From contig OZ038533.1 in assembly GCA_964036665.1 (NCBI GenBank), positions 14,541,075 through 14,605,074 on the forward strand: DNA of 64,000 nucleotides, read 5' to 3'. Below are positions 13,096 to 63,105 of the stretch, piece by piece (position 1 is the stretch's first letter; each line of letters starts with the position of its first letter). The notes below the pieces were generated by a model. That model made no database searches, had not been told where the DNA came from, and was given only the letters and a program-made list of their open reading frames with translations. Source of the DNA: Gordius sp. MW1. Taxonomy: Eukaryota; Nematomorpha; Gordioida; Gordea; Gordiidae. The translations under genes and the position numbers were made by a program.

Positions 13096-13587
13096 ATGTT
13101 AAAAATCTCTTTTTGTCGCTATTTATTCAACATAATTCATTCAAATTTAGCGCTTTAATTCTTTACTATTTTAAGTTCTAAAGCGTAAAAATATTAAAGT
13201 TTTGTGGAAGGTCTTTAATCAAAATGAAATTAGAAAACCCATCAATTTCTTCCTCATTATTAAATCCTTTTATTAACTTTATTGGAATGCAATATATTAA
13301 TTTCTATTGATTTTAAAAAAAATTTGTTTTAATCATTAATTTTTTTCATTCTTTTAGGCTTCTCTTTTGTTTTGGGCACAAATTTTCGCAATTGTAAATT
13401 AGTGTACAAGATATTGATTTGAGGGGGTAGGGTGAACTGCTATAAAGTATCTTTTGTTTTTATTTTTAATTTATACTTTCTCTTTTTTAATATTGAAAGT
13501 CTGAATAACTCTAATGTAAGTTTATATTTTAAAAAAAGACATAATTTGCCCATGGCCTTTTACACATTGATAAGGTAGGGATAGTGC
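13096..13587. other. Intergenic AT-rich DNA
   Basis: Nothing recognised apart from a few homopolymer tracts. Confidence 0.4.
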
Positions 13588-20894: not shown

Positions 20895-21061
20895 CATGGG
20901 CGTAGCCAAGGGGGGGGCAGGGAGGGGCGGCCGCCCCCCTCTAAATCAAAAAATTTGTTATTTATTAAAATTATGGCTAAAATTTGAAAAAATACTCATT
21001 TTGCCCCTCCCTAAATCATTATTGCCCCCCCCCTCTAATTCAAATGCTGGCTACGCCCATG
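20895..21061. mobile_element. hAT-like MITE, family A
   Basis: CATGGGCGTAGCCAAG ... CTGGCTACGCCCATG, flanked on both sides by AAAAGTAG, an exact 8 bp duplication. Confidence 0.92.
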
Positions 21062-27600: not shown

Positions 27601-30600
27601 ACAAGACAGGATGGGTCAGAGCATTTTTTACCCAAAAAGGGCTATTTTGAGAATAATTAAACTTGCTTCAAATCAGTGAATACACTACAAGCCATATGTT
27701 TTAGCTGTTTTTATATTGATTTTCAAAAAAATATTAAAGCCAACCAGGGGTCAGCAAAAAAGTCTTTTACAGAATCATAAGTCTATTATTAAAAACAAGT
27801 TGGACAGGACGGACAGCCGAGCCCAAAAATTGCATAGGAATTATTTCTTTTATCTTTGAAAGAGACTAGGCTGTCTAAAGCAATCGGCCACAAAACATTT
27901 AAGTTGTTTTTGAGCGGTAAGTGTTGTAAAATGACCTGGGTTATGTTTGGTCGACGATCGCCCTTTGTTTTATCTAAGATTAACGACCGGTCGACACTGG
28001 TCTGTTTTTCAACTTTTGACCAAGCCCAAATGTCGACTAATAAAAACAGTTTAAACGGCTAAAATTAAAGGTCGCCCAAACAAAACCCACTTCTTTTCAA
28101 CACTAGTAGGTAGCGTTATTAGTTCGTATGTACATTAATCTTACTTTTAATTGCTATGCAATTTTTTGTAAATGATAGTTTTTTGTGCTTTCATAGATTT
28201 TGCACCCGGGAACTAAAGAAATCGATCTCAGCGAATGTCGCATCACAGATCATTCCATTCAAAAACTTTCCCTATGCCCCTTACTCACCTACATCAATTT
28301 GGAATACGTTAATAGCCCCGATCACAATGATGGACCTCAAATTACTTCGAAAAGTATCCTTTTCTTTGATAAAAAATGCTATATTTATATATATCTGCTT
28401 TGCAGGTTCTGTTAGAGTTTTTCACGGTGAACACGATTTATGAATCAAATTTATTAAAATTAAATTTGGCCGATTAACTTGCACGTTATTGACGTTTGAA
28501 TAACGTCAAGATCGCTGTTTTTAGCAACTTTGAGAGCTAATAAAATTCAAAAACTTGGCCCATAATGAACAAAATAAAATTATATACGTGTTGATCGTGA
28601 AAAACTTTGCCAGAACCTGGAGTTTGCCGGTTGATTTTATAAGTCTATTATTTTTTAACCAGTGTTATACAATTAGTTCACAAATAATACAATTATAATA
28701 GTATATAAGGAGCATTATCATGGGCGTACGCAGGGGGGGGGGGGGGGCACTTATTTTAAAAATAAGATTTTTTCAATACAAAAACCCTCAAGAATTAAAA
28801 AAAATTATGTTTTGCCCCCCTCTAATTTTGCTCTGCCCCACCCTCATTAGGTTCTGCCCCACCCTAATTAGGCTTTGCTCCCCCCCCCTCGGGATAGCCG
28901 AGACCTTTTTTTTTTTTGCTCTCAGGCAAATTGTAGAGGAAAATTTTTGGATTTGGAAAGCCAAGACCTTTTTTTTTTTGCTCTCAGGAAAATATTGGAG
29001 GAAAATTTTTTTTAATCTGCCCCCCTCTAATTCAAAACCTGCGTACGCCCATGAGCATTATATAAGTTATATGTCTTTATCTTACTCTTTTGAAAAGGCC
29101 AGGAACAAAAATATTTCAAATTAAATTTTTTAAGCCAAAGCCATTTTTGCATATGATCCGGCCTGAACAGGGGTAAACTAGTGGGATAAAAATACTTTAC
29201 TCCAAGGGGCCTTGTATTTCTAGAGCTTACAATCTTTGGCGAGGGTTATGGGGTCATAATTAAAATTTTTAAATGGCAAACAAGTCAATGTGCATGCATG
29301 TGCATGTAAGGTATCATTTTAAAAAGTGATCATTTTTCCATGGGATTAGTGAGGGAGAGTCAGGACCCATTCTGCCTTCAAGGGAAGGGTCTGACTGTTC
29401 TAGTAGAGGGGGGGGGGGATCAGTAGCGATTAGTGTTGTAAAAGACTTGAGTGTAGTCTACCTTTAGTGTAGTCGACCAACGTTGATGGTCTGTTTTTCT
29501 TAAGTGACCTCCTCTAGGCTTTGTCGAAATATGAAAAACAAACCAGAGCATTTCGGTCTGTTTTTGTTGAGTCGGCCGTTGGCCTTAGTCGAACCAAAAG
29601 TCGACTTAACCAATCCTTTATCTTTTTTCGATACTATACTTTGAATGGCAGTAGCTATTTTTAACAACCACACAAAAAGTATTGTTTTTGCATCGCTCTA
29701 GTGCCCATGCCCAGTGAATGTCGTTTTTATGTAAATAAAATGATCTCGGTGTTTTTAAGATTAGAATTCTATTTGCCGACGAAAATTTTGGGTCATTTAG
29801 AATTTAACAAAAAAGATGTTTTACTTTTGCTTACCGCTTAAAAATGCATTCCATATTTATATATCTCCCCCCCCCCCAGGTTTAGTGTTGTTGGCGGAAA
29901 ATTGCAAAAATTTGCACGACGTATACCTAGCCCGTTCCGATTTCGTCAACGATACCGTCATATACAGTTTTGCCATGAATTGTCCTTACCTCCAAAAAAT
30001 CAATATATGCGGTTGCAAACTCATCTCGGATAAAGCTCTAAATCACCTGGGCCTATACGCCTCCAATCTCAGCTGCATCGACTTCTCCTACACTCTAGTA
30101 TTAATTCACTATGCAATTTTGTATGGGCTCCTGCCAAAAATGTCTTGTTTTGTCCTGTCCAACATGTTGGTCTGTATAAGGGAAAACTACGTATCTGGAT
30201 AGTTTTTTTAGTTTTTGGTTACCAATATGAATTTAATTTTGCTGACCGTGGCCTGAGGCCAAACCTTTTTCCCTTTTTAGGCCCGACTACAGCCCGTTCC
30301 AACAGCTTTGGTAAATATCAACTCTATTTTTGTAGTTGATCTAACTGGTCGATTCAGAAAGGAAAGCCACGAATCTGGCCAAAATCTTTGCCTAAAAAGA
30401 AATAATGACCGCTGTTGGAACATATTTTGTCTGAACCCCGGCTCTAGGACAAAATTATTTTTTATTTTTACAGATCTTAGATGATTTTTTCATCTCAACT
30501 GGTTATTTATGCAGCTCGTTCTATTAACTTTTACCTCGGAGAGACTTGGGACTTAAGAATTGCATCGCTTAAGGGGGGGGGGGGGCAAAAATGCTTTAAA

Positions 30601-33383: not shown

Positions 33384-33407
33384 ATGAGCGACGAAGACTT
33401 TTCTCAC
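33384..33407 (+). CDS. SLC2A candidate alternative first exon 1a
   Basis: ATG then MSDEDFSH, ending exactly at a consensus GTAAGT donor in phase 0, which matches the first constant exon. Short and acidic, as expected for a cytosolic transporter N-terminus. Supported only by phase and donor. Confidence 0.55.
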
Positions 33408-36400
33408 GTAAGTTAAATTAAATATAATTTCATCCATCCGATGTTAATTTTTTCATTGACTTTATAAATACTATTTAAAAACTTCATAGTATTAGCATAT
33501 AGATTTGCTTTTAAATTAAATACAACGTATTTTCTATACATCAGAGCCATTAAAGTCCAGTGGGCTTAGGGGGCCAGGGAAGGCTATGGGGCTTCTCAAC
33601 CCCCGAAGCCGCTTCCACAGGCCCACTAGACCAGTGGTTCTTAACCTTTTTATACATGCGACCCCCCAAATATTTTATAATTTTTTTGCGACCCCCCCAT
33701 TTTTTTTATAATAATTTATATTTGTTAAATTATCTATTATATGATTTTTTATTATTGTTTCATTTTATTAAATAATAAACATAAAACACAACTTTATTAT
33801 TTCATTATCTATTTAAAATTTAAATAGATAATGAAATAATATCAACATAAAAACTTCATAATTAAACATAAAAACAATTCATTTATAATAAAAAGGATAT
33901 GCATTCGGAAATATATTTAATGAGATTTCTGCTGCTGAACATCATCAACCAATTTGTTAATTCTTGGTTCAATTGATTGTAATGCTATCCTCATGCAGGA
34001 ATCTAGTCGCAATCGATTGCGTTTTTTAGTTTTTATATCCACCATAGTTGAGAAACCTTTTTCACACAAATATGTACTAGCGAAAGGCAGCAAATTTTGC
34101 ATTGCTGCTGAAAATAATGGAGGATATTCTGCACGAATTTGTATCCAAACTTGCGCCAAACTTTTAGTTTTAAACAAAGATTTTAAATTACAATCATTTA
34201 TTAATTCTAATAATGAATCTTCATCATCTGATGATAAATTGGTATTTTTATAATTGTTGTATGGATCTTGAATCCAGAGTTTTGTAATGTGACCTTCATC
34301 ATTAGGGAAATATTTTTCAAATTTATCAATTAATTTTAAAATATGACATTTAATCAAGTAATTTACATTTCCTTTCTCGAATTGAAATTTTGAATCAGAG
34401 ATTAGTTGTGAATAGAATGGAAACATTTCATATATATTTGAGTCTATTCTTTGAATCCATCTTTGTAATTTCATTTTCATAGCCTCAATTTTGTTATGCA
34501 TAGTAAAAATATCAGATTTAGGTCCTTGCATAGATATATTCAACTGATTTAGAATTGTAAAAATATCCGCTGGTTTGACAATTTAGCGACCCAATTATTG
34601 TCATCAAAATAGCTTGATAGGCTGGAGTTTTTATCATTTAAAAAAAGTTCAACTTCCAGTCTCAATTCAAATAAACGAGTTAAGATTTTTCCTCGTGATA
34701 GCCATCTCACTTCTGTGTGAAATAAAAGAGAACTATTATCTGCGCCAACTTCTTCACAAAAAATTGAAAATAATCTTGACTTTAGTGAACTTCCTTTTAT
34801 GAAATTTATAATCTTTACTGAAATTATCAAAACTTCATTCAATTCTTCACTCATTTCCTTGGAGGCTAATTGTTCCCTATGAATAAAACAATGAGTAGTT
34901 GTTATGTTTGCATGTGCAATACGTTTTATTCTTGATGTAATGCCCTTATAACAGCCAGTCATAGAGGCAGCACCATCTGTGCAAATTCCAACACAGTTTT
35001 TCCAGAGTAAGCCATTAGTATTCAGAAAGGAATCTATTTTGTTAAATATATTTTCACTTGTTGTATCTGTTTCTAAGTCTATGCAAAAGAGAAATTCTTC
35101 AGATATATCCATTTTTATAAAATCAATAAATCGAATGTATCCTAAGCAAATGCTCCTGTTAGAAACATCTGTAGATTCATCTATTTGTAATGAGAACCAA
35201 GGAGAATTTTTAATATAGCCAGTTAACTGTTCCTGAAGATCATTAGCTATTAATAAAGTTCTATTATAAATTGCATCATTTGACAAAGGTATTTCTTTAA
35301 TTTTGTTTGACACAAAGGGTTCAAATAGCTCTTTACAAATATTAAACATGGCAGGTTTTAATAATTCTTCGGCTATAGTAAATTTTTTGCTTTTGCAATG
35401 TACAAAGCTGCAATAAATGAAGCTTTTAATAAATTTTTATTGGTAGTAGTTGTCACATTTATGAGTGTCTTTTGATTTTTTAATTCATCTCTTTTTCTTA
35501 TAAAAAAATCTTCCTTTTTATTTTTATATTTATCATGGTTAAGATTTAAATGCCTCCACAATTTATTAGGTTTCATTGATTCATTAGAGAGAACTACACC
35601 ACATATAACACATTGTGGTTTTGTAGTTCCTCGAACTTCTATGCTTACAAACCCATATTTAATATAATCACGATAGTATTTTCTAATTCTATTGTTACTT
35701 GATTTTATACCTTTAGTTTTAGGACTATTGGTTTTTTCCGTTTCATTTTTCGCTGTATCATCATCGGAACCTTCACTAATATTTGAAGTTCCTGGTCCGC
35801 GATTATTTAGATCAAAAAAAATTTCCAATGTTTCTTTCTGCTTTTTGCTCATAATATGGAATATAATAACTATTTAAAATGAACAAACAATATAAGAAAT
35901 AATGCACTATTTTGCGATCCAAAGTCTGTGGTGAGAAGTTCGCTTTATTTTTAAATTTCAGAAGTTAAATTTGTTGAATTGTAAAATTAAATGAAGATAA
36001 TTATTTTAAAGATTAGAAAATGAATAAATTATGAAACAGCAAAAAAATCTACCATTCAAAAAATTATTTTCATTATAAATAATAAGTTTCACAACGTATT
36101 TTAATAGCAGCATGGTGTGAGTGGTTATAGCGACGTCTTGTAAATGTAAACAAACATAATGCAACGAGTTCGAATCCCAAGGTGAGTATTTTTTCTAAAG
36201 CTTTTCTGAATATTTTTATTTTATTCTAAAAAAATTTGGCGACCCCCCGGCAAACTTCTCGCGACCCCCTTGGGGGTCGCGACCCCTAGGTTAAGAATCA
36301 CTGCACTAGACCATTGGCCCCTTTTCTGATGCTCTAAAATCATCAAGCCTGAGCTAAAACGATATGCATACTAGAGATCTGCAACGCGGCGTTTTTTGCA

Positions 36401-39400
36401 TGGAAAATTTTCAGGCCCATCCGTAATTTGTTGTGTGCACTTCGGCCCGTCCGTACTTGGAAAACTTTCGGGCCCGTCCTTAATTTTTTTTATGCACTTT
36501 CGGCCCGGCCCATATGCAAGATTCGGCCTGCAGCCTACTGGGCCGGATCGTTGATTAATTTATAATTTATGCAACATATTGCTATTCAACTGTTATTATA
36601 TATCCGAGCAATTGAATAGGTACATATTTATAAGGCTTTGACTCTAACCCACTCGTAAAAAATGTTAACAACTTTTAGTGATGTTATTTGTTTAACATTC
36701 GTGGGCGTAGCCAGTATTGGGATTAGAGGGGGCAATAATGATTTAGGGAAGGGCAAAATGATCACTTTTTGAATTTTTAGCCATATATTTAATAAATTTC
36801 AGCAAATTTTTGGATTTAGAGGGAGGCAGCTGCCCCTCCCTGCCCCCCCCCTTGGCTACGCCCATGTTAACACTTTAATATTATGCGCTCATTTTTTTAT
36901 ACAAAATGGGGTTGTAAAAGATATTTCGAGATTATTTATAAATTCGAATTAAGGCTAAGCGTTAAAGATCTTTGTGTAATCCTTATGTCTATTGTTGCGC
37001 AGCCAATCCTTTCTAAGTGATTAAATATCTGGAAATGTCCCTATGTTAGAGGATTCGGAGCAATTCTACAATATAGCACAACGCCTTGAGCAAATACACC
37101 AAAGCATAAGCTTGTAAAATTGCAGCCTGCCAGTTGAGGAAATAGTACGGCACATTTTACACTGCAGGCTTAATAAATTTAGACATTTGCGAAAATCTAA
37201 AAGCAATGCCATCAGCTAGTCAGCCTTTAAAAAGGTCCAAACTTCCTCCATATTTGAATCGTCAGATCCTTCCCTTGAAGTTCGAATGCGTCCTGACCAT
37301 TCTTCACTGGTCCCGAAAATGGACTCCTGTTAAAATGGGACTTTACGTGCATCGACTAGTTTGCCCCCTCAAATCTTGATTATTACTCTCTGGCCCTCGC
37401 CGAAGATTGCAAGCTCAAAAAATAAAAGGCCCTCTTGGAATCTAATATTTTTCTCCATATTTTTTTCTTTTCTAAGCCCGGCCGTCTGCCGTGCAGATCT
37501 CTAATGCATACATTATACAAAAGAGGTTAGCTGTTAGCTATCCCGAACAAACAGGCGGCAAGTATACGAAGCTTACCAAAAGCTCTAAGTTTTTGCTTTC
37601 GAAAGTTGAATGCATTGATAGAGGCGGCGTTGGCTGTTATGGTATTATAAATAATTTTACAGAAGGAAACTGGGCCGGACTTTGCAAAATTATAGATTTT
37701 TTTAGATGGTTTAAGGCGATATGTACAGAAGACGCTGTTAAAATTGTAGCAGAACTCGTGAAACAATTCCCCTTGACTAACAGCAAATCCAGTACATCTT
37801 GACATAAAAAAAACTTTTTCTCCACTTAAAAAACCGTTAAAGTTCATTAATTTATTCAATGTAAAAATACTAGAGGGTTAAGGAAGTGGCCTATAAGGCT
37901 GAAAGTTCAGAAGCGGCTGAGTTAGATATGCCCGAAAGTCCCTTAGCCTCCCCAACACCAAATTCCTCGCCTTATAGGCCCACTCTAAACTCGACCTCCT
38001 TCCTCTGGCTAGGCGACTTTATAAAATAGGGTTACAATTTCAAAAAAATTTCCTTATCTCCCTCCCCAAATCATTTTTGCCAACCGCCCTTCCCCCCCCC
38101 CTCCTAATACTAGTTTCGCCCGGGATTCTATGGTTTCCTTCATATAATTTTAATTGTTGCACTAACCTAAGGCAACTGTTAATTTTAGTTGCACCCAAAT
38201 ATCAATACTTATTTTATTATATTATGTTGGCTTCTTATATAAAAAACCAAACTTATAATTTATATATTATTTTTATTCAGGCGCACTCTATTAAATGCAT
38301 AACCAAATATTTAAGTTGTATGATTAATATTTTAATAATTAATTTTTTGACTTGATAAAATTAATAGGAGATGGATGAAGATGAAAAGAGAATTCTGCCG
38401 AAAAGCACAGAGCAGGTAATTTTAATCTCATGATTAAGTCTTTACTTCCATGCGGATGCGATCCGAATTATTATAGACATTTATAAAAAAAAGATATTCT
38501 TTATAGGCACCACAATTATAAGACAAGGGTGTGCTCAAACCAAAAATAAATTATAGACAACAACTTATCTCCTTTTTAAATTGCAAATACGACAGTTAAG
38601 TTGCTATGAACTTAGCAAGTGTAGAGTTTTTGGTCATCAGAATCTTGGTAGACCAGAAAACTTAGGGTCTGCTAAATTGTAATGTTTATCATTGTAAAAG
38701 TTATTATTAATCCGAAATAAATAATCAAATATATTAGTATAATATTGCAATGTATTTCTAAACACGTTTTTGCTTTTGATTAAATAACCTAATCAATATA
38801 CAACGCGACTGTAATAAGATAATATGTTAACCAAACTTCAGCTTTAATTACACTATCAATATTCTAAACACGTAAAATAATTAATTAAATAAGGAATTGT
38901 TGCGCTGCGCAATTAGATACTATGTAAGTGATTTCTAAAAAAACTTAGACTATATGAATCGTGAATAAGGAATCAGTTTATTAGCGGTACAAGTATTATT
39001 AATAAGAGAGGATTTTAAACAATGGTGCCATGAACATGAGCTCTTACAATATAACGTTTTCTTTGCGTTTTTTTAGTTTAAAAAATTCTATAAAGTTACT
39101 TATATTTAAGACATAAAACTTAGTAATGTAATAATATTTGAAAGTTTATATGAGGCAAATGGCGTCTGAAAATCATTTCCCTTATATCTTTTTGTGCAAC
39201 CTAACTTAATAATGGACAGTTGTTTTTTATGAATGTTTTTTGATTCCAAATAAACATTTTGTTTAATACCATATTATGTGTCTATTTCATTTGCCTTTGA
39301 CTCCAAATTTTTTTACTTACCTTAATATAAATTTGTATCTTAATTTAATAACTCATATTGTAAAGTAACTACGGTATGATATGATGGCTATATTTTGGAT

Positions 39401-42400
39401 ATATAATATTACTTATGTACCAGGTGTGTAATATAAAAGCGGAATTTTTTTAATAGAAAATACATGTTTTACATCAGCAAGGATGGAAATATTTTATCCA
39501 AATTGTTGCACATCGCTAACTTTACTTGTTTTATCCTGTCTGGTAATTTGTTGATTTAATAGTATATAACTGTAACTCATCTGAGGCAAATCAGTCGTCA
39601 AAACAATTTCGTACATATAAGTGAAAAATGAAGCGCTGCTTAGCCAGTGGGCGTCCAACAAATAAATAGTAATCGGACGAAGCCAAGTTTGGTCACTATG
39701 CGGCATGCAAGAATATTTTCCAACTAATAGCGTTAATCTTTTTCTAATCCGTTTTGTTGTGTTTCCTGGTGCATTATCATTGACACTCTGCGTCGTCTTC
39801 TCTAAAATTCTCATGGTGTTTTTAATAAAAAACTGATTCTGATCAATCATTAGTCGTTGGTAACTATGAGAATTAACTGTTTTCTACAAGTTTTAGCAGC
39901 TTTTAAAAGATCAATTTCTTATGCTTCAAAAAGAGAGCATTGTCTCCTGACCATGGCGATTTGGTCTTACAGTTTCAGCCGATGGTTCGCATACTCGCTA
40001 TTGTTTTATAACTAGTACATTGAACTATTTACTATCGTTTTGTTAACACTTTTATGTATTATTCCCTATTTTTCCCTAATCAGTTTTATCAACTATTGTA
40101 GTTACATCTTTTCTCCCAATAAGCTATAATTTTAAAAACTTTTCTTTTTTCATAATGGACTTATGCGGCTCGAAATATTGGAACTCATTTCACAATCCTA
40201 TTAGACTATTAATATAACCAATTTTCTTGCTTAAGATCTTAATATACCTTAATATCATCTCCAGTAACAATTCGAAGGATAGCAATTAATAAATCGTAAA
40301 AATACTAAATGATCCATTTTATATATATAAATTTTGGTTTGAGGTAAATTAAAAATTGTTAATTTTGCTGATTATTTGGTAGTGCCTTAATCAGCAAAAA
40401 TATCAGTCCATTAATAACAAATTTCACGTGAATTTTAAGTCTTTTTTGAAACCGAGGCCCTCGAAGGCGAGATTCTTTATAATATTTTAACAAATTTTAA
40501 TAAGTGTTTGAACCCTAAAAAACAATATATAGAACCATCGAACTACAGAGTGACATCAAATTTGCGAATAGATCCCAGTATATTAATTTATTTTATCCGT
40601 TAATTATTTTATAATTAACAAGCTATGCTTTAATTGCTAGCTATTTATTAGGGCTAATGCAAAAACGAATCAAATTAATAAACAATTAATTGTTGGCTTT
40701 AATTTCAAAATCAATTTATAAATATTCCTTTATTTGCTATGATTGATTTTTGATTAAATAAATAATTTTTGCTTCTGACCCCGATGGTCCCAACATTTTT
40801 CTATTGTGGGGCCCTAAGGGGCCTGAATTTTGGGTTTTTAATTTGGGGTAGAAGTAGGGAAGGGGGGGGATTTGGGCCATTCGGCCCCTAGCTAAGCCAC
40901 TACTCGGTGGTACTGTTTTCCACCTCTAAAGAAATATAGGGCACTAAACTAAGAAGTCAAAAATATCAATTCAACCATTCTTTTATCCTTGGGAGAAGGG
41001 GATGAGACAAAAGTTTAAGATAAAGAAAAAAATAATTGGGCTAGCTTCGATAAATGAAAAGACCTGGGGTGATTGAAATTGTAAAATTTAAGCGAGCGTT
41101 TTGAGCTATATTATCTATCTATACGGCCTTGAAATCATTTAATCTAAAATTCTTACAAAAATTGTCATTGTTTTTAATTCGTAAATAGGATTTGCCACTA
41201 TTTCTTCTTTTTTTTAGGGAGGGGGGGGGTGTTTCTAAAAATCAGTGATAGGGGTAGCCCAAAGGAGTCAGGAATGGGCACTAATTCCCTCTAATTTTAA
41301 GAAAACTAATTTTATTAAAATCCTGGATAGACCTATGCAATCCAGTAATCGGATATTAAAATGAGAAACGCGAGTAAAACTATTATAGCGCGTCGCTAAT
41401 TTGAGAATCGATTTTTATAATTACATTTATAAAAGTATGTTCGTTGTTGTTAAGGGGAAAAGATTTTTCTAATCTGATAACGTATGCTTATGTTACTAAA
41501 TTTTAAAAAACTCAAACTTTTCAGGGTCAAACTTATTATACTCATTGCCCATTAATTCGATACATTGTGATCATAATAATCAATTAATTTTGACTCCCTA
41601 TACAAATTTAACCATCCTGTTAGTATTTTGCTTAACGCATAGAAACTGTATGTTTTTGCTGAAAAACATAAAGTTTGGAAGGTTATTTGTAACTGAGTCA
41701 GTATGAAGTATAGTTGTAAACGGCTGGGTTTTGTTTGGTCGACATTTGGTTTAATTAAGTCTAGCGGCCGATTCTGGTCTGTTTTTGAATTTCGACTTAG
41801 GCTAAAGGTCGATTAGGAAAACAGACCAGTAAACTTTTGGTTTGTTTATGTTTAGTCGCCTTAACACTTTGTTGGTTGGGTGGGGTCCTGAGGACCCCAA
41901 GTTATTTAAGATTGCTGTACAAAATAAGTTACTGAATATTATAATTTCGTTTTTTCAGTAGCTTAACAAAATTTACAGAATATATCTGCAAAATTTGGCT
42001 AGTTTTTATGCAATAGTTTTTAAGATAGAGAGTGTTTCAGATGCCCGGGGTCTTCCAAGACCCCACCTTCCATATTATGAAAAAATAAGATTTTCCAGCA
42101 TTTTTTTTTAAATATATTATTAAAACCAATTATTGTAAACCCATTTGGGAAGAAATTTTTTGTATACATTTCTTTTTATTTAAGATATTTATATTTTAAA
42201 CTCTGATTTTAACACATTAATTTTTCCTCGTGGTATTTCAAAATGCTTATTTATGTAATTTTTCCCTCCGCATTTTTTGATTTTCTAAAGTCTAATCTTG
42301 AAAAGTGCAGTATTTTTGATAGTTCTTCGTCAGTAGATGGTATATAAACATAAAAGTTAAAACATTTTATCAAGTAATTCCTGAAGATTCTGATGATTAC

Positions 42401-45400
42401 ATATACATGAGTAGTCATATATCGTAGAGTGAGTGAACAGGAAATGAAGATGAAGAAGAGTTAATTAATATGCCTAACAAAAATAGTTACTTCTATAGGA
42501 TATTTAACTTAGAAGCTTATATTTCAAAGGGAAAGACAATACAAAGTGGCACAAAAATTTTCCTTATAAAAATGTTACAATGGATAGAATTTTGTATTGC
42601 ATTTACCTGGAGTAAAGCCATATGGACAGGCAGCTAAAAATTTTGTTGATTGTTTTAAATTACTTATTACAGATGAAATAGTTCAGATTATAGTGAAATT
42701 TAGCAATTTGTGACTATAAAAATAGATATAATATGTATATGTAACTATTTTTATAGCCTCAAACAATTTCTTATATAAAATTTTTTATTAATATTTTCCA
42801 TCTTAATTTTTATCTTTTATTATGTATCTGTATAAAAAATTTATAATAACATTTGAATTTATAACAATATGAGTTGAGATCAATAGTAACTTATTTTGCC
42901 TTAAAATTTAAAAGGCCATTAATTCACTAAGTTTGCATCTCTTTTTTTTTGTTTTTGGTTTATTTTTTACCAAATTTTCTTTAGCATATTTATCGATCGA
43001 ACATTTTAATAGTTGGCTATTATTTCAGTAAGGTAATTTGAGTTGAAATTTATATTCGGGTCCGATTCGGAATAAAATTATAATATATTTTTCGGGTCGG
43101 GGTTGCAAAAAATTAACTTTGCAAAGCTAACCTTCGTATTTTATTAATTCACTTTACATTCAAAATAATCATTGATAAATAAATTTAATTTATCGGTTTT
43201 TTGTCATTTCTATATTATTAAGTTAAGGGGGGGGGGGGGGGGGCTGGATAACCCCCTTTAACTAAGGCCAGGGGGGCAAAAGCAAGTCATCATCCCCAAC
43301 CCTTTCATAATGAGCTGACATTGTTTCCGCAATATAAAGTGCTCATTCATCACTATATAATTAATCTCACTCAATCAAGAATTTAACTATGGCATGCGCA
43401 TAATTGATTACCATGATTTGCGAATCCTTAATGCTTAATCATTGTAAAAAAGCTATTGATAAACTAAATATAATAATTTGATAAGAGGATAAATTTACAT
43501 AGCACCCGGTTTATCGCAAATTTTTCATCGGAAAATAATCATGCTTCCCCCTTCAGTTTTGGTTGATGAAATTAATTTACTGATTTGTTAATTTATCTAT
43601 TTTATCCATATCCGATTGGGGCACCACCGGATCTAATCATCGCGTTTAATTAAGTCGCCTTCAAAATCAATAAAAGCTAGAGGCTCCCCCTTAGTTTTGT
43701 ATATCAAATCAATCAATATTTGCATTCAGCCATTTTATTTTATTATAACTACTAACCATTTAAGGTGATGAATGATGCATCTACCCCCCCCCCCCCCCCC
43801 TTCCTGCATATATTTATCACCTGCGAGGTCATGCATATAAATAATGTAAATGGTTGAGGCGCCCATTGGCTTAGCTTGACTTCTTTACAGCGTCCTGCCT
43901 TACTTAATTGTATTTAATAAGTGTGGGGGAGGGGTTGACCTATTAATCATGGGCGTGACCAAGGAAGGAGGGGGGGGGGCGAGAAGGTAATGGTGGCTGC
44001 CCCCCCCCTCTAAATCCAAAAAATTGTTGAAATTTTTCAAAATTATGGCTAAAATTTCAAAATGGATATTTTGCCCCTCCCTAAATCATTATTGCCCCCT
44101 TCTACCTCCAAAGCTGGCTACCCATGGTGTTACTACACTATGTTAATTGATTGGGTGTAAATTAATTTGAACTTAAATGGAAAAAACGGGGCAATTTAAA
44201 TCTTCATTTGTTTACTGTTTCGAACCAAAATTTATATTTTTAAGTCCCTATAAATTATTTTTTTCGAGTTTCGACCTGGATATTTGTATAAAAATCTCAA
44301 AAATGTTGTGGATTATTTTTAATTTTAAAACACTAACGGTATTCAAACCTTCAAATTTATCTTTTAGCATATCAGCCTTAACAAATCCGGGTCAAGTTTT
44401 AGGTTGCCAATACAGAAAGTAAGATAATTTTTGGCCTATGCCAATAGGTAGTGGAAATATAAAATTTGAAAATTAGTGGCTGGCTTTAGTATATGACTAG
44501 ATATCAGATTTTTCCCCCTGCCATGGATATAATTTATAACAAACCGTAATAGCTCCCTCGAGAAGAATTTAAGTTTGATTTACAAAAAATGAACAAACAT
44601 TATTGGAAAACAGCAGTTTATAAACGAAACCAAGAATGCAGACTTCATGGGCGCAGCCAGGGGGGGGGGGCAGGGAGGGGCATCTGCCTTCCTCTAAATC
44701 AAAAAAATGGTGAAATTTATTAAAATTAAGGCTAAAATTTCAAAAAGTAATTATTTTGCCCCCCCCCCCCCCCTAAATCATTATTGGCCCCCTCTAATTC
44801 CAATGTTGACCACGCCCATGGCAGACTTAATAGTTAGTGGACCAAGGTTACTTTAATTTTACGAACCCCATCACAAATATTTCTAAATTTAATCTCTGCC
44901 CTTTTCCAAAGGGGAGATAATCAATTAAATATAAAAAACACTTATTGTCTTGACCTCCTCAAATTTCGCCTATAAAAAAGTTTCACTACGAAGTCATACA
45001 AACTCTATTTTTAATACAAAGTAAACCGGTAGAGATTATTTTAAACATTTTTAAAATTAAACTCTAATGTTAAAACTTGTAATATTTTAAAAGTTAAAAA
45101 AATGTTGGTTTTATTATTAACGCTAAAGGGGGCAGCTGCCCTCACCCCTCTTTAAAATATATTTAGAGAGGTCTGATTATGTAAAAATGGACCAATAGAA
45201 TGTTGGGCCAATATGCCACACCCTCCACCTTCCTTACATACCACCACTGTAATACCGGAAATAAAATTTGGTTTTGTTTACATTGCGCGCCCAGTAAAAA
45301 CTCATTGAGGAAGAGAAATTAATTATTATGATTATACCATACAAGTCTTAAAAACATTAAAATGAAAATCGCACAGACAAAATATAACGTTTTCACTAGG

Positions 45401-48400
45401 AGTGTGTTCTGTTATAAATTATCATAGCGAGTACATCGTAGCCAGGGGGAGGCAGGGAGGGGCGGCTGCCCCCCTCTAAATCCATAAATCCTTTGGAATT
45501 TTATATATTTATGTCTAAAATTTCAAAAAATTATCATTTGCCCCCCCCCCCCCAAATCATAATTGTCCCTCTCTAGTTTCAATCCTGGCTACGCCCATGT
45601 CTATAAGTGCATCATTGGCGTCAATATTCTTTCTTAAAACATAATTTGTTTAAAACAACGTGTCTTAATCGATTAGGCGGAAACAATTAGTTATCGCTAA
45701 CTATAAGTAATAATAAACATCGATTTATCTTACAATTTACAAATTAAAAATCAATTGGCGTAGACTGTGATTCAATTAGTATGGGAAATGGGTATAATAA
45801 GTGTGTTTGTGTGCTAAAGCTAACGTCTAGACTGGCCTTCTAAAAGATAACATTTTGTAATAAAACACTAGCAGCACACATTCCTTTGCCCTCCCCCACC
45901 CCCTCCCTTTATAATTCTCAAGAGTAGAGCACGTGTTAGTTACGGAAAGGGGAGGAGAGCGAGAGAAAGGATAAGGATTAGTTATAATGGTTATAATATA
46001 AAAATAAGAAAAAAAGTTTATGGCAACTAAGTCATACTCATACTTACATTACATATATAAATATTGTAAACAAAATAAACATTTATTTATCAACATAGTA
46101 GTGTTGATATGATGGTATAGTAGTATAGGTAAAATAGAGTAAATAAAATAATATTATAAAGTACCCTCTCCCCCCCCCCCCCTCTGCCTTATTTGATTCA
46201 ACAACGTGGTGGTTTGTGCGTTAGCGTCGTATATACAGTTTAGGCGCAACAACAAATACAACATTTAATATATATTTTTATCTCTACCTCTACACTACAT
46301 ACACACCCTACTCCCCCCTTTCAATTTTTCATTTTTCTTCCTTTGCCACATTCATTATACATTACTACGTAAGCGCAATATCTCCTTATTGCCCAAAGCT
46401 ATTATTTCCTTGTGATAGGGAAGAATTAGAGAAAAATACTTATTAACCAAGTCTGTGAGAAAATCCCACAATACCCTTCCTATTTTAAGCTAGAAAAAAA
46501 AATTAGCCTATCCGTCGTTATAATTCATCGGGGGGCTTTATTTATTACCAGACCCACCTACCATTGCTTTTCACATTGTGTTTTAGTTGATTTTACGAGT
46601 CGCAAAATAGATTATTTTCTCGCACCCACCCAGAGGATAGAAAAAGCATAAGGCATCATAATTTACATTTGATTTTGGCTTGGATTAATGGCAACTCCCG
46701 TAGAAGGCCCCTCGGGGGAAACGCCCCAAGAATTGGAAAGACGGTATAAAGTGGAAGAAATCAGGCCCATGAGAGCTCAGGTATAATAAGCCACCCCTCA
46801 CATACCCCTCTAACCCATAATCTAATTTTTTTGTTTATGCTCTTTTCATTTTTATGATTTATGTATTTCCCTGAATTTTTTTTAGTGCTTAACAATTAGT
46901 TTACTTTCAAAACCTTTTAAAATGCTATTTAGTTTTAATTATAAAAGCTCTATTGTCCATTTTAAATTTTAGTTGAAATTTGTCATAGTATAATCTAATT
47001 TATTCTCAGCTTAACCTTGCCTCTTATTTAGAATGATCGTTTTGTCTATATATCCTTTTTGTCCTTTAAGTCATGGGCGTAGCCAAGGGGGAGGGGGCAG
47101 GGAGGAGCGGCTACCCCCTTTTAAATTCAAAAATTTCATTAAATTGTGGCTAAAATTTCTAAAAATGATGGTTCTGCCCCTCAAATCATTATTACCCCCT
47201 CTAATTCCAATGCTGGCTACGCCCTTGCTTTAAGATATTATTGTAGGAAAATTACCAAAAAATATTTAGCCTATATTTTTGCTTCAAATTATGTTTTACA
47301 GGTTTCAATAGGGGTAGGTCATTTAAATGCATCTAAATGTAGCTATGTATTGATTGATTTTTTGTCTATTGTCTGGCGCTTTCAAAAATCATTTGAATCC
47401 TATGTAATATCTTTTGTAAAAATTTTGACCTTTTTACGATAACCTCAAACTTTTATTATACTATAGCCTTAGTAAGCAATTATTTTTTGAAATGAAGCGT
47501 AAAATTTGATGATTTTGACGACCTTTAATTTCAAAATTGAATATGCTTATTCATAGGCCCGTTCAAATGCCAATAAATACGGGTGTAGCCAAGGGGGGGG
47601 AGGCTGCCCCCCTCTAAATCCAAAAACGTTGAAATTTAGGGTTAAAAATTCAAAAAAAGGTTTATTTTGCTCCTCCTTAAATCATTTATTGCCCTCCTCT
47701 AATTCCAATGCTGGCTACGCCCATGCCAATGAATAAAGAACGTATCGTTTGATTTTTGCGAAATATGATACTAAATTTAAAAATGCTTATTCTCTAACAT
47801 TTGCCTAATTTATACAGCACGAGATCTTCAGGCAAAATAAATTAATTAATAATGCAACGGAGTAGTTGCTGTAAAAGGGGGCAGAGGAAATTATCATTTA
47901 ACACCTCCCCGGTAATTAAAGAGAAGGTGGCAAAGCGGACCCTATAGCTTAGCTACAATAATTAATTTAAAGAAAATCGATTTTTACCAAGCCTTTCTTC
48001 GGAATATAGAGGTTAAATTTGCTTAAATTAATCTGTTGAAACCTGGCCCGATCCGATTTTATAATTAAACTGCCCGCCCCCCATGCCCGAATCATTAGAG
48101 CGGCTCCTCCCGAAATGCTGAATTTTTTTTTAGCAATAATTTCGCTAGATTTTTTAAAAATTGTTAATCTTCAATTTTTTTTCTGGTTAAGAACTACTAC
48201 AATTAATAACTATTATACAATCAAATAAAAATGTGACAAAATGATTCACAAAAACCAAATCATAAAAATATGTTAAAAATCTCACTGAGCCCGAATTGCC
48301 GTAATTTGTTCATAAACAGATCAAAGGCTTTTTGGTCTTTTTTTCTCAATCGACCTTAAGGCTTAGTTGAAATTTGAAAAACAGGCCAGAATCGACCGTT

Positions 48401-51400
48401 AGTTTTAGTGAAACCAAGAATTGACAAAACAATATCCAGCCGTTTTTACAACACAAGTTGCCCCGCCCATCGATGTAAAATTTTCATGAGAGTTATAAAT
48501 TTAAAACTAAGGAAGAATTTTTTTAACTCAAATTCTGTATTTTTAGGAGAGATTTTATGAGCGAGCTTTGCGTTGGTTTTTTTTATTAAGGAAGAACCTT
48601 GGATACATAATTAGGACTTAGTCCCACTGTTTACATCCTTTTTACCATTAAAACCGCCTAATTGAAGGCCAAAAATGTTTCTTCCATGTTTTTTTTGCAT
48701 CGTATCATTTTAGTAACATCTTCATTAACTTTGTCATTCAAAATTTATGTGCACGTGACGAAACCACCGTTTTACATCATGTCTCGCTCACTACTGTTGT
48801 AAAAACGGGTGAGTTTTGTTTGGTCGATCTCTGGCTGTAGTCGACTAAGCATAAACCGACCATAGTTTTTTGGGCAAACCACCCCCTCCGACCTTCCCCT
48901 TTTTTATTCACAAAAAAAGTCTTCTTGCTTATTTTTAAATGAAATAGAGCGAAAATTTGAAACAGTTATCAAAACGACTCCTCCTTTTACCAAGCCCCAT
49001 ATCATCATCACACATGTTCTTTGTGTGTAATTTATTTGGCAGCCTAATTTTTAAAATTCAATCGAAAGATCTGTGGGATGGGCGTAGCCAGTATTGGAAT
49101 TGGAGGGGAGGGGCAATAAGGCTTTAGGGCGAGGGGCAAAATAGTCATTTTTTGAAATGTAAGCCATAAATATTTTGAATTTTTAAAAATTTCTGATTTA
49201 GAGGCGGCAGCCGCCCCCTGGCTACATCATTGGGGGGGGGGGGGGTAAGGAGGAATCAAGAATCTTCTATTTTTAATGTGACCTGTTTGGTTCGGCCCAA
49301 ACCTGTTATATCAAATATCAATGACTAATAAATATCATGCGTATGAGAGTTTGGGCATTGACGTCAAATGGAAGAGCATGATGCAATTCAATCCTGACAC
49401 ACTCCCGTTAAAACCTTGAGGCTAGTGTAATAAAAATAATAAGGTATCGGTGTGAAAACACACCTCCCAGGAAAGAATTACGCCAAAAAACTTTTAGTGC
49501 TATGTAATTGTTGTTGATAATATTAAGATTATGCCGCCCTCCATTCCGTTAACATCTGCACTGTTGATTAATAAGCATTTTGTTTACGAAAATGCGGAAA
49601 TGGGCACTCGAATTTGAGGGGTGCGGGGTAAAAAGTTGGTGTATGAGTCCCTCACCCCGGCCCCTAATCTCAATTAGTGTAAGGTCTGTTTATGTTTAGT
49701 CGACTAAAACCAAAGGGCGACCAAACAGAACCCAGCCCTTTTACAGCACTAGTTTACAGTAATATAATATACTACCTTAAAACCCGATAAGCCTGCGGTA
49801 GTGAGGATGAGACCAAGGTAAAATAGATTTTTTAAAAATTTCGTATTTTAAATTTTGGCGCTTAAAAAGTGTAGATCAATGACTGGAGTAATCGACCCGA
49901 AAATTTTATTCGAGTGAAATCTATTGAATAAAATGACAAAACACTTTAGGATTTTAGAAATTCGTTAGTAAAACTAAGTGGTTAAAACAAGTTAAGGGCG
50001 GGGGGGGGGCAGTTGACCCTCTTTGCCTCCCCCCTCACTAAGCCCATGGGATTGGGGGAGGGTGATTAAAATGTGTCAAATAATGAATGACTATACAAAT
50101 AAACAACACTTCACAACCCTGGGGGCTGGGGTTGCATTGCGAGGCATAAATATTGTATCATCGACTAATCCGCCCCTCCCCCTCCTTAATCTCTCCCAAA
50201 CCCTCTGGTGTGATTTTGGAAAATATTTAAACGACGTAAACAATGTTGATCTTAATTATCTGACATTTATCTTAGTTACGTATTTTACGCTTAGTCATTA
50301 AAAGCATTTTTCCATATTCATCCTATCTTAAAGTTTTTTAAAATATTCAACTATATCTTTGGGGGCATATAACTTGAAATCATATATTCCTATATTCCAT
50401 AGCCAATTGAAGTTTTATTGGCAACACCATATAAAGTTTGCCCAAATCCTTACGGAGTCTATATATTGAAATATTTCGTTGGAATAAGGAAAGGGAATTA
50501 GCTAGCCCGTAGCAGTGATTTTTGGCGGGACCCGGGCTTTAATACTCACTTCAAAATACACATTTATTTATTTCGAATTTTCCATCTTTATAAATAACAT
50601 CTAAACCGTCGAGAGCTCATACATACATCATGTCCGCACAACCAGGGGTAAATAATTCAATAGAAATTCCATTTTTATCTTACTATATTTATCCCATATT
50701 CATTTTTAATTTTAAAACCTACTTATTTTTTCTGGATATGCCTTAATTGTGCAATTTTTTTGGCACATAGATATTTTTTAAATTAGGAAACAAACATTTA
50801 AAAACCGCTGGATTTTGTTTGGTCGACTTTTGGTTGGAGTCGACTAAACATAAACAGACCAAATGGTCTTGGTCTGTTGTGGTCTGTTTTTATTAGTCGA
50901 CCTCTTTATCCAATATTTATTGCAAGCTTTGTTGTTATTATTCAAATAATATTATAATTTTTTTTCAAAGTTTAAACTAGAATTACTCCCATAATCAGGG
51001 GCGTACGCAGGATTTTTTTTTTTTGGGGGGGGGGTTTCAAATTTTGGACTTCGCATATCAAAAGAATTTATAAGAATTTTTCAAGGCAAATACATTTAAA
51101 AATTAAAAAGATTATGTTATGCTTCCCCCCCCCCCCTAATTGAACTTTTGAACGTTTCGCCCCCCCCCTCCCTATTCCAAAACCTGGCTACGCCTAGATA
51201 TACCTAATGTAGCCTCCATGTGAGCTTATCCAGTCAAATTTAGATTTTAAACAGCAGGTTTTTGTTCCACGTGAACTAAATCTAAAATTATTATTTAACT
51301 ATAATCATTAAAAATCTTACCAGCAGCAAGTTCTTGTTTTACATGATTAACTTTTTTGACACAAAATTTAAATATTATGCCTTTTCTTTTATTCAAATTG

Positions 51401-54400
51401 ATTAACCGCAAGGAAAATTATGGAAAAATATATTAACGCGTAAAAATATTTAATGGTTGTTGATTATAAGTGCTCATAGTTAATTAAGTAACAACACTCA
51501 TTTCATAATATTTATTATATAATGCGATATTAGAAAATAAATAAATATTTTTCCGAAATCCGCGGGGGGGGGGGAGGGTTTGAACCCCAAAACCACCCCC
51601 TTGCGTACGTCACTGCCCATAATTATATAATATTAAAGTATCACAGTACGATTAAATTATTGATCGGTTAAAATTGCATTCGGACTGGGCAACATACATT
51701 TTTCATAGAGAAAGATCCAAATTCAATCACGCACATTAATTTAACTCCATTCCTCTACATAGTGTAAAAACGGCTGGGTTTTGTAGACCCATCCGTTTTA
51801 CAACACTACCTCTATAATATAACCCCCAAGTAATATTTAAAAACTTTTCCACCCTTATAATATTTTTAAAAATTTACAATATTTACTTTTTTAGAGGAGC
51901 CAGGTCAAAATTAAATTAAATCCACGTTTCATTCAATAGTTAACTGGGACTTTTTAAAAAAAATTATACCTTATTCTAGTGTTGCAAAAAGACATGTTTC
52001 ATTTAGTCGACGTTTGGTGTTAGTAACTTAGCAATGGCTTTTTGGTATGTTTTCCAAGTCGACTTCTAGGCATGGTCAAAATTTTAAAAACTGACCAGAA
52101 TCTATCCATTTGTCTCATTTGAACCATAGGTCAATTAAACTAAACCAACGTTTTTTTACAGCACTTCATTAAACTTACCCCTAAATTTACATGCAAACGC
52201 ACCGGAAGAAACTTATTTTATTATGTTTAGCTCGGCTCTCGGGCATAATAATCTTGACCTCGCTCGACCTCTCTTATTTTTCCAAACTAATTTTCACGCT
52301 TGAAATTTCAAACAGAATTTATTATCAATTTTTAAACGCATCATCCAATACAGAGAGTATCATATTCATATCTAAAATCGCTGCTCTTCCAACTAGCCCA
52401 CAGCCCCCACGTCAATTTTCTCATCAAATTACATTCTTACCCCAAGGCTTCCCTCCCCCCCCCCCCCCTTCCCATCTCTAGCACATTATTTGATATTATT
52501 TGGAGGGAGGTGTGCTTTTCAAACGACCTTCCCCCCCTCCCCTTACTACTACTATTACTATAATATCGATTTTTGCGTGGCCCCTTTAAACTTGGAAATA
52601 ATGGGAATATACAGTAGAGAACTGTAAAGTCATTTTTTTCAACCCGAACCCGACCCTCCCCGAATTTTTTTTTTAAATTTTTAACCCGGACCCTACCCGA
52701 CCCGAAAGCATTTTAAAATTTTCAACCCGACCCGGCCCGATCCGAAAGTGGCAAAAAAAAAATTTCATCGAATTCCTTCCGAACGTGGTTCAAATTTGGT
52801 ATCCAACGCTTTTGCAAGAAAAATTGCGGTGTGCATGGGCGTAGCCAGGGGGTGGCAGGGAGGGGCGGCTGCCCCCCAAATTTAAAAAAATCTTAGATAT
52901 TTTATCAAATTATGGCTAAAATTAAAAAAATGGTCATTTTGCCCCTCCCTTAATCATTATTACCCCCTCTATCCTGGCTACTCCCATGTGGGTGTTTAAA
53001 ATTTAATAACAAATTAAAGTGCGATCTATGAAACTAATTATTTCCACAGATTTTGATTACTAAATTTAGTTTCCTGATTAATTATAGATATATTTATATA
53101 TGATAGCATACAGTATCAGGTCACATTCAATTTGAAATATAGAGTTTTGCAAATGAATCATTTAATAAATTTAAACATAATCTTTTTTTTATGAATATAT
53201 ATTCATGTAGTTTAAATTAATAATAAACTACCACTTTACAACCCGACCCGAAAGTATTCCAAAATTTTCAACCCGAACCCGAACACATTTTAATCGAGTC
53301 GGGTCTCGGGTCACCCGTGCAGTTCTCTAAATACAGTATAAAACTTTTTAAAATTAAATACAAAATCCGAAAATTATGTGTTTGGACTAGATACCTCTTT
53401 ACATAAACCTATGCGCTGTGATGACATTCAAGCATATTTATCTTTTTTTAATTAAAATGCTGTTAATAAGTAAAAATGAGCTATAAAATATGCAATGAAC
53501 GAATTGATAAAAACAATATTCATCAGATTCGGCAAGAGCCAACGAGGGCCATCATGTGTCAGCTATAAAAATTTATAATTATATTTTGCTGTTTAAACAC
53601 CGAGTTTTTGACGTAATATAAAGCTGGGTCAATATTTAACTTTGATTTTTAAGTACTACTTTTTTTGATGCTATATGGAAAATACTTTTTTTGGTGCCCT
53701 ATCAACTCGCCGAAAACCATCTCGCCGAATTTAATGTCCCCCGGTTAAAAAAGGTCCCCTAATTTAAAATCTCCCCCAGGGGACCATTCTTAACTGGGGG
53801 ACATTAAATTTGGCGAGATGGTTTTCGGGAAGTTGACGGGCCACCACTTTTTTTTTTGGGGGGGGGGGGGTTTATCTCAACGTCTTTGACCCTCCTCCTT
53901 TCATTTCTAAATGATATGCATTATTCATGAGAGCGCGGAATTATGGAATGTGGTGGAGTACGTATTTAAAGCTCTACCACCGGGGGCCCTCTCCCTAACT
54001 TAACCTTCCCTAGTATTGTTATGTAATTAATAGGGGGTATTCAGCCCCCCCCCTTCCTCCCGTCTACAAGCGGAAGTAGAATTTGCTAAATAGTGGGTGG
54101 GCAAAATGTCGATATTTATCAAATTTTAACATTACTTGTATTGGTTTTAAACGAATTTTTAAGTTTCTTGATTTTTAACATTTTGATGGCATTTTAAGCT
54201 TAAAAAGCTAAGAAAGGATTTGATAAGGGGTATTAAAACGGTAAAACGTTGGAAAATAAATTTAGGTGGGCTATGTTTTTTACAAACGACCTTTTAAATA
54301 AAAATACAAAAATTTATTTTCATTAGAAATAATAAGTATAACATTTCTTAATTTTTTATATTTACGAAAAAATTCGATTTTTGGGCAACTACTACTTAAT

Positions 54401-57400
54401 ATCAAGTTTGCATTTAATTTTGTTTTGTTTTCCACAGGGTATGACGTGCATGTTGGCCACTTGTGTGGCGGTTATAGCGCTCAGCTCATTCCAATTTGGC
54501 TATAGCATTGGGGTCGTAAACGCCCCCGAAAAGGTATACAACTCGATATATTTTTTCAAATATATATTTATATATACTACGAAATTCCGCGAGATTTTAA
54601 ATGAATAAATCATGTTAGATTTAATTTTTAAAGCCTAAATTGCCGACAAAGTGTAAGGATTTTCCTAAAAGTTGTCAAAAAGTTATATGCCGTTCGAAAA
54701 ACTTAGACTTTTAATTCTATCTTATAATGTAAGGTCCTTTTGATTTCGATTTGAATTTTATATTTTGACACCCTATCACATAATCTCATGAATATTAAGT
54801 GTAAATTAGTGTTGTGAAAACGGCTGGGTTTTGTTTGGTCGACCTTCGATTTAGTCGACTCAACATAGACGGACCATTTGACCAAAAAATATTTAGTCTG
54901 TTTATGAGACTTAGAGAAATAGGCAAACAACCATTGGTGTCTGTTTATGTTTGGTCGACCAAAACTAGAGGTCGACCAAACAAAATCCACCCGTTTTCAC
55001 AACACTACTGTAAATTAAGCTTAAGAGATAGCACTTAAAATTATAAAAATAATTGAATAATTGAATTATTTTTCATATATGTATTACTTTAAATATTGTT
55101 GTTATATAGATTTTGAGAAGTTGGTACGGTGATATCTACTATCAGCGTTACGGGGCTGTCCTGGAAAATCGGAAAGTGACGATATTGTGGGGCGTGACCG
55201 TTGCTATTTTTTGCATCAGTGGTGGGATTGGTGGCTTATTGTCGGGCTACTTTTGCGACAAATTTGGCAGGTAAAAAGCAATTTTTACATTAGACTCCTC
55301 CACCAAAAACACCTAAAACCATTTTGAAAAAAACATAATTAAAATAATAAATTTGAACTTTAAAAAGGCAAAAAGGATCTTCAAATATATAAGTGTAAAA
55401 GAAGTCTAAAAAACGAATCCTCCTAATGATGTGAAGAATTTTAAATGTGTGTTTTAACTTTAAATCCACCAAAAATATTTAAAATTAGTTTAAAAAAAAC
55501 ATAACTAAAATAAAAAATTTGAATTTTTAAAAAGGCAAAAAGGATCCTCAAATACACAAGTGTAAACGCATTTTGAAAAAGGTTACGCTTACTAAAATAA
55601 ATGGTAAGTAAAGCCATCGCCTCCTCAACAGTGTTTTTTACTTATTACATCTAAGATTAAATAGTACCGGCTAATTGAATTTTAACTTTACACGCCATTA
55701 AGGATTTTGTAGTTTATACAAAGGTTAACGTAAATTCGATACGATTTTATAGTACTTTTGGATCATATTTTGAAGTAAAAGAAAGGGCTTGCAGTAATGA
55801 CAAGAATTGTAAACCCAAGATGGACAGGACAGGACACGACAACCGAAAGAGAGCCCATAAATTGCATATACGGGGAAGAGGGAACGTTTTTATTAGTATT
55901 TTTTGGTAATTTATGATAGGAAAGGGTGCCTCCTGTTCAACAATTCTACTGCCTTTTTGGCCGCAATTCTGATGGGCTGCGCTCGCCCGGCCCGTTCTTA
56001 CGAACTCATCATTTTGGGCCGTTTTATCATTGGGTTCAATTGTGGTAAATATCACATGATGCGTATGATACAAAAATTTTGTGGTTTCGATTGTTCGATT
56101 GGGGTCAATATGACCCCAAATCATTTAATGAGTGAGCTAAATAAATCTGCTGAAAAGGTTGTTTCTGACATAAATTCTGTTGTAAATTATAATTTAACAA
56201 GATTTTTGTAAATCGAAAGCGTGGAAAGTTTTAAATGTTTTCGCATCAAGCCTTCAATAATTTTGTAAATCTATATTGGTTTATAGACTTTTAACCTCTT
56301 TCATATACTTTAATTATTTCCCTTCGAATTTAGGTTAACTCTTTAGTCGTGGTCTGGGGTCAATCCCCAGAACCTAATTAATATTTATTATTTATTTAAT
56401 ATATGTATTTGCAGGGATAACGTCTGGTGCAGTTCCCATGTATTTGGCAGAAATATCTCCCGTCAGCTTGCGTGGAGCCACTGGGGCCGTACATCAATTG
56501 GCCATCACCATTTCAATCCTATTTTCCCAAATTTTGGGAATGACCCAACTGCTAGGAAACGTCTACAATTGGCCATTTTTGCTGGGTATGCAGCACTACA
56601 TGTGTTTTAATTTTTGCTCTCACTTTCCACAAAAATTGCCCTGTTCAGTAATGTCATGTGCTGCCCATTTTTGGCTTCCTTAATACATTCTTGCCTGGGG
56701 GTAGTTAAGGAAGGGAGGCAGGGAAGGGCGGATGCCCCCCTCTAAATCCAAAAATTTATTAAGATTTTTGCCGCTCCTAAAATCATTTTTGCTCCCGATA
56801 ATGCTGGCTACGCCCATGCATTCTTTAATAGTGCTTGTGATAAATTTCAGTCATGCTGTATAATAATACTATTAAAGCCGTTTTTGTGTGAGGTCAAACA
56901 CAGGCATAGCAAGAATTGATATTTATTTTAATGTCTCATATAGGCATATACGTATAAATCCTTATGCTTATAATTTGTTATTTATGTGACTTAATTTTTT
57001 GTATAGTTTATAGCCGCACGGACATGGCTTAGAAAAATTTTAATGAAAAGAGAATCGTTTAAAAACGACCTTTATGTCACTTTTTAAAGCTAGTCTTGTG
57101 GTTTCTTGATACTTGTTTCATTTATATAAATCTTAGTTTTTATAACGTTTTTCTATAAAGTTTTGGCCATTTTTTAATTTTTATTATATGATACTATTTA
57201 TTTTCATTATGCTCGCGTCGTATACAGCGTTTACCGCCATCCCAGCCTTGATCCAATGCATCCTGTTACCCATGATGCCAGAGAGCCCTAGGTATTTACT
57301 CATCACCAAGGGAGACGAAATTCGTGCCAGATACGGTATATGTATTTGCAGAAAAAAGGCCTTTTTTTTTTGAAAATTTTACACACTTTTTCCATTATGC

Positions 57401-62937: not shown

Positions 62938-63105
62938 CATGGGCGTAGCCAAGATTGTACTACAGGAAGGGGGGCAATAATGATTTTGGAAGGAGCAAAA
63001 TAAGATTTTTGGATATTTTAGCCATTATTATAATAAAATTTCAAACATTTTTTGGATTTATAGGGGGCGGTCGCCCCTCCTTGCCTCCTTCTAGCTACGC
63101 CCATG
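62938..63105. mobile_element. Family A MITE
   Basis: CATGGGCGTAGCCAAG ... CTAGCTACGCCCATG, flanks AATACTGA and AATACTGC (7 of 8). Confidence 0.88.

Follow-up and report, generated by a model that had tools for sequence, protein, structure and literature searches.

A window of 64,000 nucleotides from the nematomorph Gordius sp. MW1 (contig OZ038533.1, here C7; C7:14541075-14605074, forward strand) contains an ordinary sugar transporter gene of the SLC2A family, GLUT1-like, designated gene A. Its nine constant exons are complete, and its protein very likely begins in a separate exon upstream of them. Judged from the sequence, this start exon is most likely 46688-46780, with a possible second start at 50.6 kb, a combined reading that we regard as moderately probable. 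A first-pass annotation had proposed instead four dispersed first exons with four promoters. Positions are those of the window unless prefixed by C7, coordinates of all features are collected in Table 1, and the genome searched comprises 211.8 Mb in 12 contigs.

In the mechanism we favor, the start of the protein would lie in a separate upstream exon, joined in phase 0 to the exon that holds the first membrane helix. The exon at 46688, used as the main start, would supply a hydrophilic cytosolic tail of 31 residues, comparable to those encoded by the tail exons of three paralogs (B, C and E). Should a proximal promoter at 50.6 kb be used as well, it would give a tail of six residues.

Gene A and its paralogs

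The nine constant exons join into an open frame of 475 residues plus a stop codon. Compared with proteins of solved structure only, the product has human GLUT1 as its top match, with an expect value (E) of 4.9e-143 and residues 6-465 of the 475 aligned; GLUT3 (1.7e-128), GLUT4 (4.2e-123) and GLUT5 (8.7e-111) follow. The earlier assignment to the SLC2A sugar transporters is borne out by this frame and this match. Membership is assigned by full-length similarity, strongest to class I, and on that basis gene A is a complete, ordinary animal gene of GLUT1-like, class I-like type.

The acceptor of the first constant exon scores 10.4; the median over the 53 acceptors of the six modelled genes, itself counted, is 7.5. 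The first-pass annotation held that this exon starts in phase 0 and lacks a natural start. The strong acceptor agrees with the former statement; the latter is imprecise, as in-frame ATGs occur at codons 2 and 5 (GMTCML), that is, at 54441 and 54450.

Searching the genome with the gene A protein returned 48 matches among 57 scored candidates, 47 of the 48 on C7. The C7 matches comprise gene A and five paralogs, B to F. Exon fitting, with the phase set by gene A and a length difference of some codons in a few exons, placed 44 of 45 paralog constant exons with splice signals at the gene A borders, and one approximately. A phase-0 AG acceptor directly before the first constant exon, ahead of the first membrane helix, can be read in all five paralogs, hence in six of six genes with gene A, and the first constant exon of B, D and F contains no ATG. 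Because this phase-0 acceptor is common to the five paralogs, a separate upstream start exon is expected in gene A as well, and gene A very likely requires one to start its protein. All six GLUT genes share this contig, and their constant exons correspond; C and D are divergently oriented, with about 15 kb between the first constant exon of one and that of the other.

Of the five paralogs, three (B, C and E) were found to have a clear upstream exon coding for a hydrophilic tail, of 63-127 residues. Between C and E these tails are homologous, with a Smith-Waterman score of 78 that none of 500 shuffles reached. In the whole genome the E tail has two matches, its own locus and a weak one (E 0.6) at the C tail, located exactly upstream of paralog C. 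The B tail does not align above shuffles with either (236 of 500 shuffles reach its score against C, 391 of 500 against E), so the B exon is identified by frame, donor and position only. The search in B, C and E stopped at the first clear tail exon, so that a single start per paralog is not implied. The C and E tails carry basic-serine stretches (RRRAS, RRRS), which we presume could be kinase sites. In paralog E the exon for residues 128-176 is present twice (C7 ~12717.9k-12718.1k and ~12722.3k-12722.4k), about 4.3 kb apart; the copies are identical over their first 46 residues, and represent either an exon duplication or an assembly artefact.

Candidate start exons upstream of gene A

Each of the four proposed exons does have an open frame from its ATG to a phase-0 GT end. 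Two of the donors, those of 38371 and 46688, follow CAG, and all four peptides are hydrophilic, as the first-pass annotation had described; their mean Kyte-Doolittle values run from -0.43 to -1.75. The question is how many such exons an interval of this length holds by chance. In all, 169 ATG-to-GT phase-0 candidates of at least 4 codons occur in 33384-54437. Eight of them have a donor score of at least 6.5; these include all four claimed exons and one candidate nested in 46688, and seven of the eight are hydrophilic. Nine control stretches, taken from reverse strands and other loci, hold 5.5-22.3 good-donor candidates and 0.8-16.4 hydrophilic ones per 21.15 kb. Paralog D contributes no separate control, since upstream of it lies the stretch already taken for C, in reverse. 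The forward controls of B, C and E are inflated: the start exons identified in these paralogs, and ATGs nested in them, are counted there. In the remaining six controls the ranges are 5.5-22.3 for good-donor and 0.8-7.1 for hydrophilic candidates, which puts the seven hydrophilic candidates of the interval at the upper end of the range, not outside it. With 8 good-donor candidates in 21.1 kb, the interval shows no excess of in-phase start exons over chance. The four exons were thus picks from a roughly chance-sized pool, and the proposed fourfold array of first exons, each with a promoter, is not sustained: the number of candidates is as expected by chance, 46688 alone leads in donor and coding score, and 50630 alone looks promoter-like.

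Each of the four candidate regions, searched against the genome with a method that skips very common words, matched one place, itself, and so none belongs to a detected repeat. Two scorers combining donor and coding signals were used to rank 185 candidates. Scorer 1 was trained on gene A alone and scorer 2 on the six paralogs (2767 codons, 47 donors); scorer 2 may underrate hydrophilic tails because it was built from membrane-protein codons. A tblastn search of the four candidate peptides against the paralog regions gave weak matches only, the best (E 0.17) containing stops. Resemblance to the tails of paralogs within this genome, in end-anchored comparison, is weak for 46688 and absent for the other three.

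Both scorers place 46688 first of 185, with scores of 14.6 (scorer 1) and 12.5 (scorer 2). Its content of guanine plus cytosine is 54%, versus 34% in the surrounding 2 kb. Aligned end-anchored to the C and E tails it scores 21, a value reached by 4 of 300 shuffles, or by 2 of 300 if a weaker inner GT after codon 21, which would end the exon at 46750, is used.

Several observations count against 46688 as the start. The end-anchored score of 21 was also reached by 5 of 339 control segments, and a segment at 35288 that nobody had claimed ties with 46688 in this test. By scorer 2, control frames on the reverse strands of B (13.9) and E (14.7) exceed its 12.5. Unanchored, its raw score against the C tail is the highest of 186 candidates, yet 169 of 2000 shuffles reach it, which is not significant. 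When local alignments to the tails of B, C and E are ranked by z-score, it comes 17th of 160, moving up to 3rd if the exon ends at codon 21, and the other three candidates come 53rd, 93rd and 103rd. It sits 7.7 kb from the first constant exon, versus at most 2.4 kb for the tails of B, C and E, and for D and F no start exon was found. On balance 46688 is the best of the four candidates, and most likely the main start of gene A.

Alternative readings and known GLUT genes

The candidate at 50630 has the best donor of the interval (score 9.1), and ranks 4 of 185 by scorer 1 and 2 of 185 by scorer 2. Here TATAAATA occurs at -30 of an initiator-like TCATAC, followed by an 11-nt leader and then the ATG (the promoter words follow what we take to be the arthropod-type consensus). 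This layout of TATA and initiator-like words is found at one of the 8 good-donor candidates of the interval, versus 1 of 80 in the controls. These features are what would favor two alternative promoters and start exons, 46688 for 31 residues and 50630 for 6, giving long-tailed and short-tailed isoforms in the manner of SLC2A9-L and SLC2A9-S. The same layout, however, is seen at 6 of the 331 ATGs in the region, which makes one in eight weak, and it is shown by none of the three paralog start exons (B, C and E); in B and E a TATA-like word precedes the ATG by 53 and 39 nt, with no initiator match. Moreover, a leader of 11 nt is very short, and MSAQPG does not resemble the tails of C and E (300 of 300 shuffles do as well). 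A second, proximal promoter giving the tail MSAQPG is therefore possible, and use of both starts is a tentative alternative, clearly less probable than the favored reading of 46688 as main start.

The two distal candidates invite other explanations. The ATG at 38371 lies 3 nt after an acceptor scoring 7.4, where the median of real ones is 7.5, which makes 38371, if real, a likelier internal in-frame exon than first exon; it ranks 9 of 185 by scorer 1 and 7 of 185 by scorer 2. The segment 38368-38415 is the only internal-like one in the interval with phase 0 at both ends. Of 169 candidates of 5-60 codons in 32001-54437, the one at 33384 is alone in having a GTRAGT donor. It ranks 6 of 185 by scorer 1 and 18 of 185 by scorer 2, and end-anchored comparison shows no similarity to the tails of C and E; it has little in its favor beyond that good donor. 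Because the frames join, a distal transcript starting at 33384 or before might run from 33407 to 38368 and from 38415 to 54438, placing 24 residues before the first membrane helix, beside the start at 46688. The controls, with 7 internal-like segments in 176.5 kb, lead one to expect about 0.8 in the interval, and 137 of 300 shuffles match the resemblance of this leader to the C and E tails. We consider such a transcript unlikely; 33384 and 38371 are most likely chance open frames, and less likely one distal two-exon leader. More improbable by a little is that this one GLUT gene gained several start exons over 21 kb (46688, 50630 and the distal leader 33384 plus 38368) and swaps its cytosolic tails, whereas its paralogs use one long, gene-proximal tail exon. 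A non-coding leader exon followed by translation from 54441 or 54450 would make use of the in-frame ATGs of the first constant exon and leave almost no N-terminal tail, but no ATG is available there in B, D or F, and the tails of B, C and E are coding; this we hold to be doubtful, slightly more so than the gain of several start exons. Least credible, and very improbable, is the original proposal, in which each of the four exons is a genuine alternative first exon with its own promoter. In its favor, each has an open frame in phase and an acceptable donor, and GLUT genes with alternative first exons exist; against this stand the chance-like number of candidates, the acceptor just before 38371, the modest ranks of 33384 and an interval filled by a hAT element and many short repeats.

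Human SLC2A1 (GLUT1), the best solved relative of gene A, begins its coding sequence with a short exon of 6 codons, followed by a 96-bp exon, and has one standard start exon. Alternative promoters of GLUT11 are reportedly the subject of a 2005 study by Scheepers, to go by its title. That alternative first exons are known for animal GLUT genes, as the first-pass annotation stated, is supported by excerpts of three papers. Human SLC2A11 (GLUT11) has three different first exons and N-termini (PMC2913528, in excerpt). As in the proposed array, one GLUT gene there carries several first exons, but the GLUT11 isoforms come from transcripts, whereas gene A is read from the genome alone and is closest to GLUT1. 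SLC2A9-L and SLC2A9-S differ only at the N-terminus and are sorted differently (PMC3883675, in excerpt). The two-start arrangement would likewise yield isoforms differing in the N-terminus only; SLC2A9, however, is a urate transporter whose two isoforms have been shown experimentally. The Caenorhabditis elegans gene fgt-1, an invertebrate GLUT, has two distinct first exons (FGT-1A and FGT-1B, the latter with its own exon 1), and its promoters, which differ by 186 bp versus 21 kb in the gene A proposal, serve the same tissues with the same uptake activity (PMC4887973, in excerpt). A limited literature search turned up no published report on the gene A locus. Alternative first exons of gene A, if confirmed, would by analogy be a further case of an already known GLUT arrangement.

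If several start exons are used, exchange of the cytosolic tail could let a cell target or control one and the same glucose carrier in different ways, as reported for SLC2A9. Regardless of this, gene A belongs to a small GLUT family with a body conserved exon by exon and a start exon free to change. The locus also illustrates the ease with which short, in-phase "first exons" arise by chance.

Feature coordinates, mobile DNA and neighboring genes

Table 1. Features of the gene A locus and of its paralogs on C7.
Feature	Position	Strand	Basis
Gene A, GLUT1-like SLC2A, nine constant exons	54438-60146	+	Joined frame open, AG/GT borders
Gene A, individual constant exons	54438-54533, 55110-55270, 55920-56044, 56415-56585, 57228-57335, 57993-58180, 58731-59025, 59429-59556, 59991-60146	+	Open joined frame, AG/GT borders
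First constant exon	54438-54533	+	Phase 0 at both ends, contains most of first membrane helix
Best-supported candidate start exon, 31 codons, donor CAG/GTATAA	46688-46780	+	Top donor plus coding score, resemblance to C and E tails
Candidate second promoter and start exon MSAQPG, 6 codons, donor GGG/GTAAAT	50589-50647 (coding 50630-50647)	+	TATA/initiator-like layout
Exon-like segment, 16 codons, with ATG 38371 (15 codons from ATG), donor CAG/GTAATT	38368-38415	+	Acceptor 7.4, donor 8.5
Candidate start exon MSDEDFSH, 8 codons, donor CAC/GTAAGT	33384-33407	+	Donor; could splice in frame to 38368
hAT-type DNA transposon, between the two distal candidates	33632-36303	-	Inverted ends, 8-bp direct repeat, Pfam
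Paralog B	C7 14.247-14.260 Mb	-	Gene A protein search
Paralog C	C7 7.970-7.981 Mb	-	Gene A protein search
Paralog D	C7 7.994-8.016 Mb	+	Gene A protein search
Paralog E	C7 12.713-12.730 Mb	-	Gene A protein search
Paralog F, more distant	C7 14.610-14.622 Mb	-	Gene A protein search
Paralog B putative start exon, 63 codons, donor AAA/GTAAGA	311 nt upstream of constant exon	-	Frame, donor, position
Paralog C start exon, 118 codons, donor AAA/GTAAGT	C7:7981017-7981370, 2354 nt upstream	-	Tail homologous to E
Paralog E start exon, 127 codons, donor AAG/GTAAAC	C7:12729673-12730053, 386 nt upstream	-	Tail homologous to C

The hAT element is flanked on both sides by the 8-bp target direct repeat CACTAGAC. 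Its Pfam matches, Dimer_Tnp_hAT and zf-BED, both fall below the curated cut-offs, and its transposase-like frame is divided among three reading frames that overlap. Of nine frames from the window searched against Pfam, four had hits, all transposon-like save DUF4371, which lies inside the hAT frame. The word TGGGCGTAGCCA, which seems to be the terminus of a small repeat, has 20 matches in the window with at most one mismatch, against 0.13 expected. Short inverted-repeat elements of about 160 nt ending in TGGGCGTAGCCA are found across the window, for example at 36702-36864, 20897-21059 and 62940-63103. Insertions of mobile DNA could account for a long first intron of gene A with no need of spread-out promoters.

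Just upstream, 29880-31600 on the forward strand holds exons resembling a leucine-rich-repeat F-box-like gene, for which Pfam returned nothing in the two frames tested. A retroelement reverse-transcriptase fragment occupies 7824-9216 on the forward strand, with an RVT_1 match (E 2.9e-13) in 8596-9216. The only Rfam match of the window is a lysine transfer RNA, tRNA-Lys (TTT), at 13022-13096 on the reverse strand.

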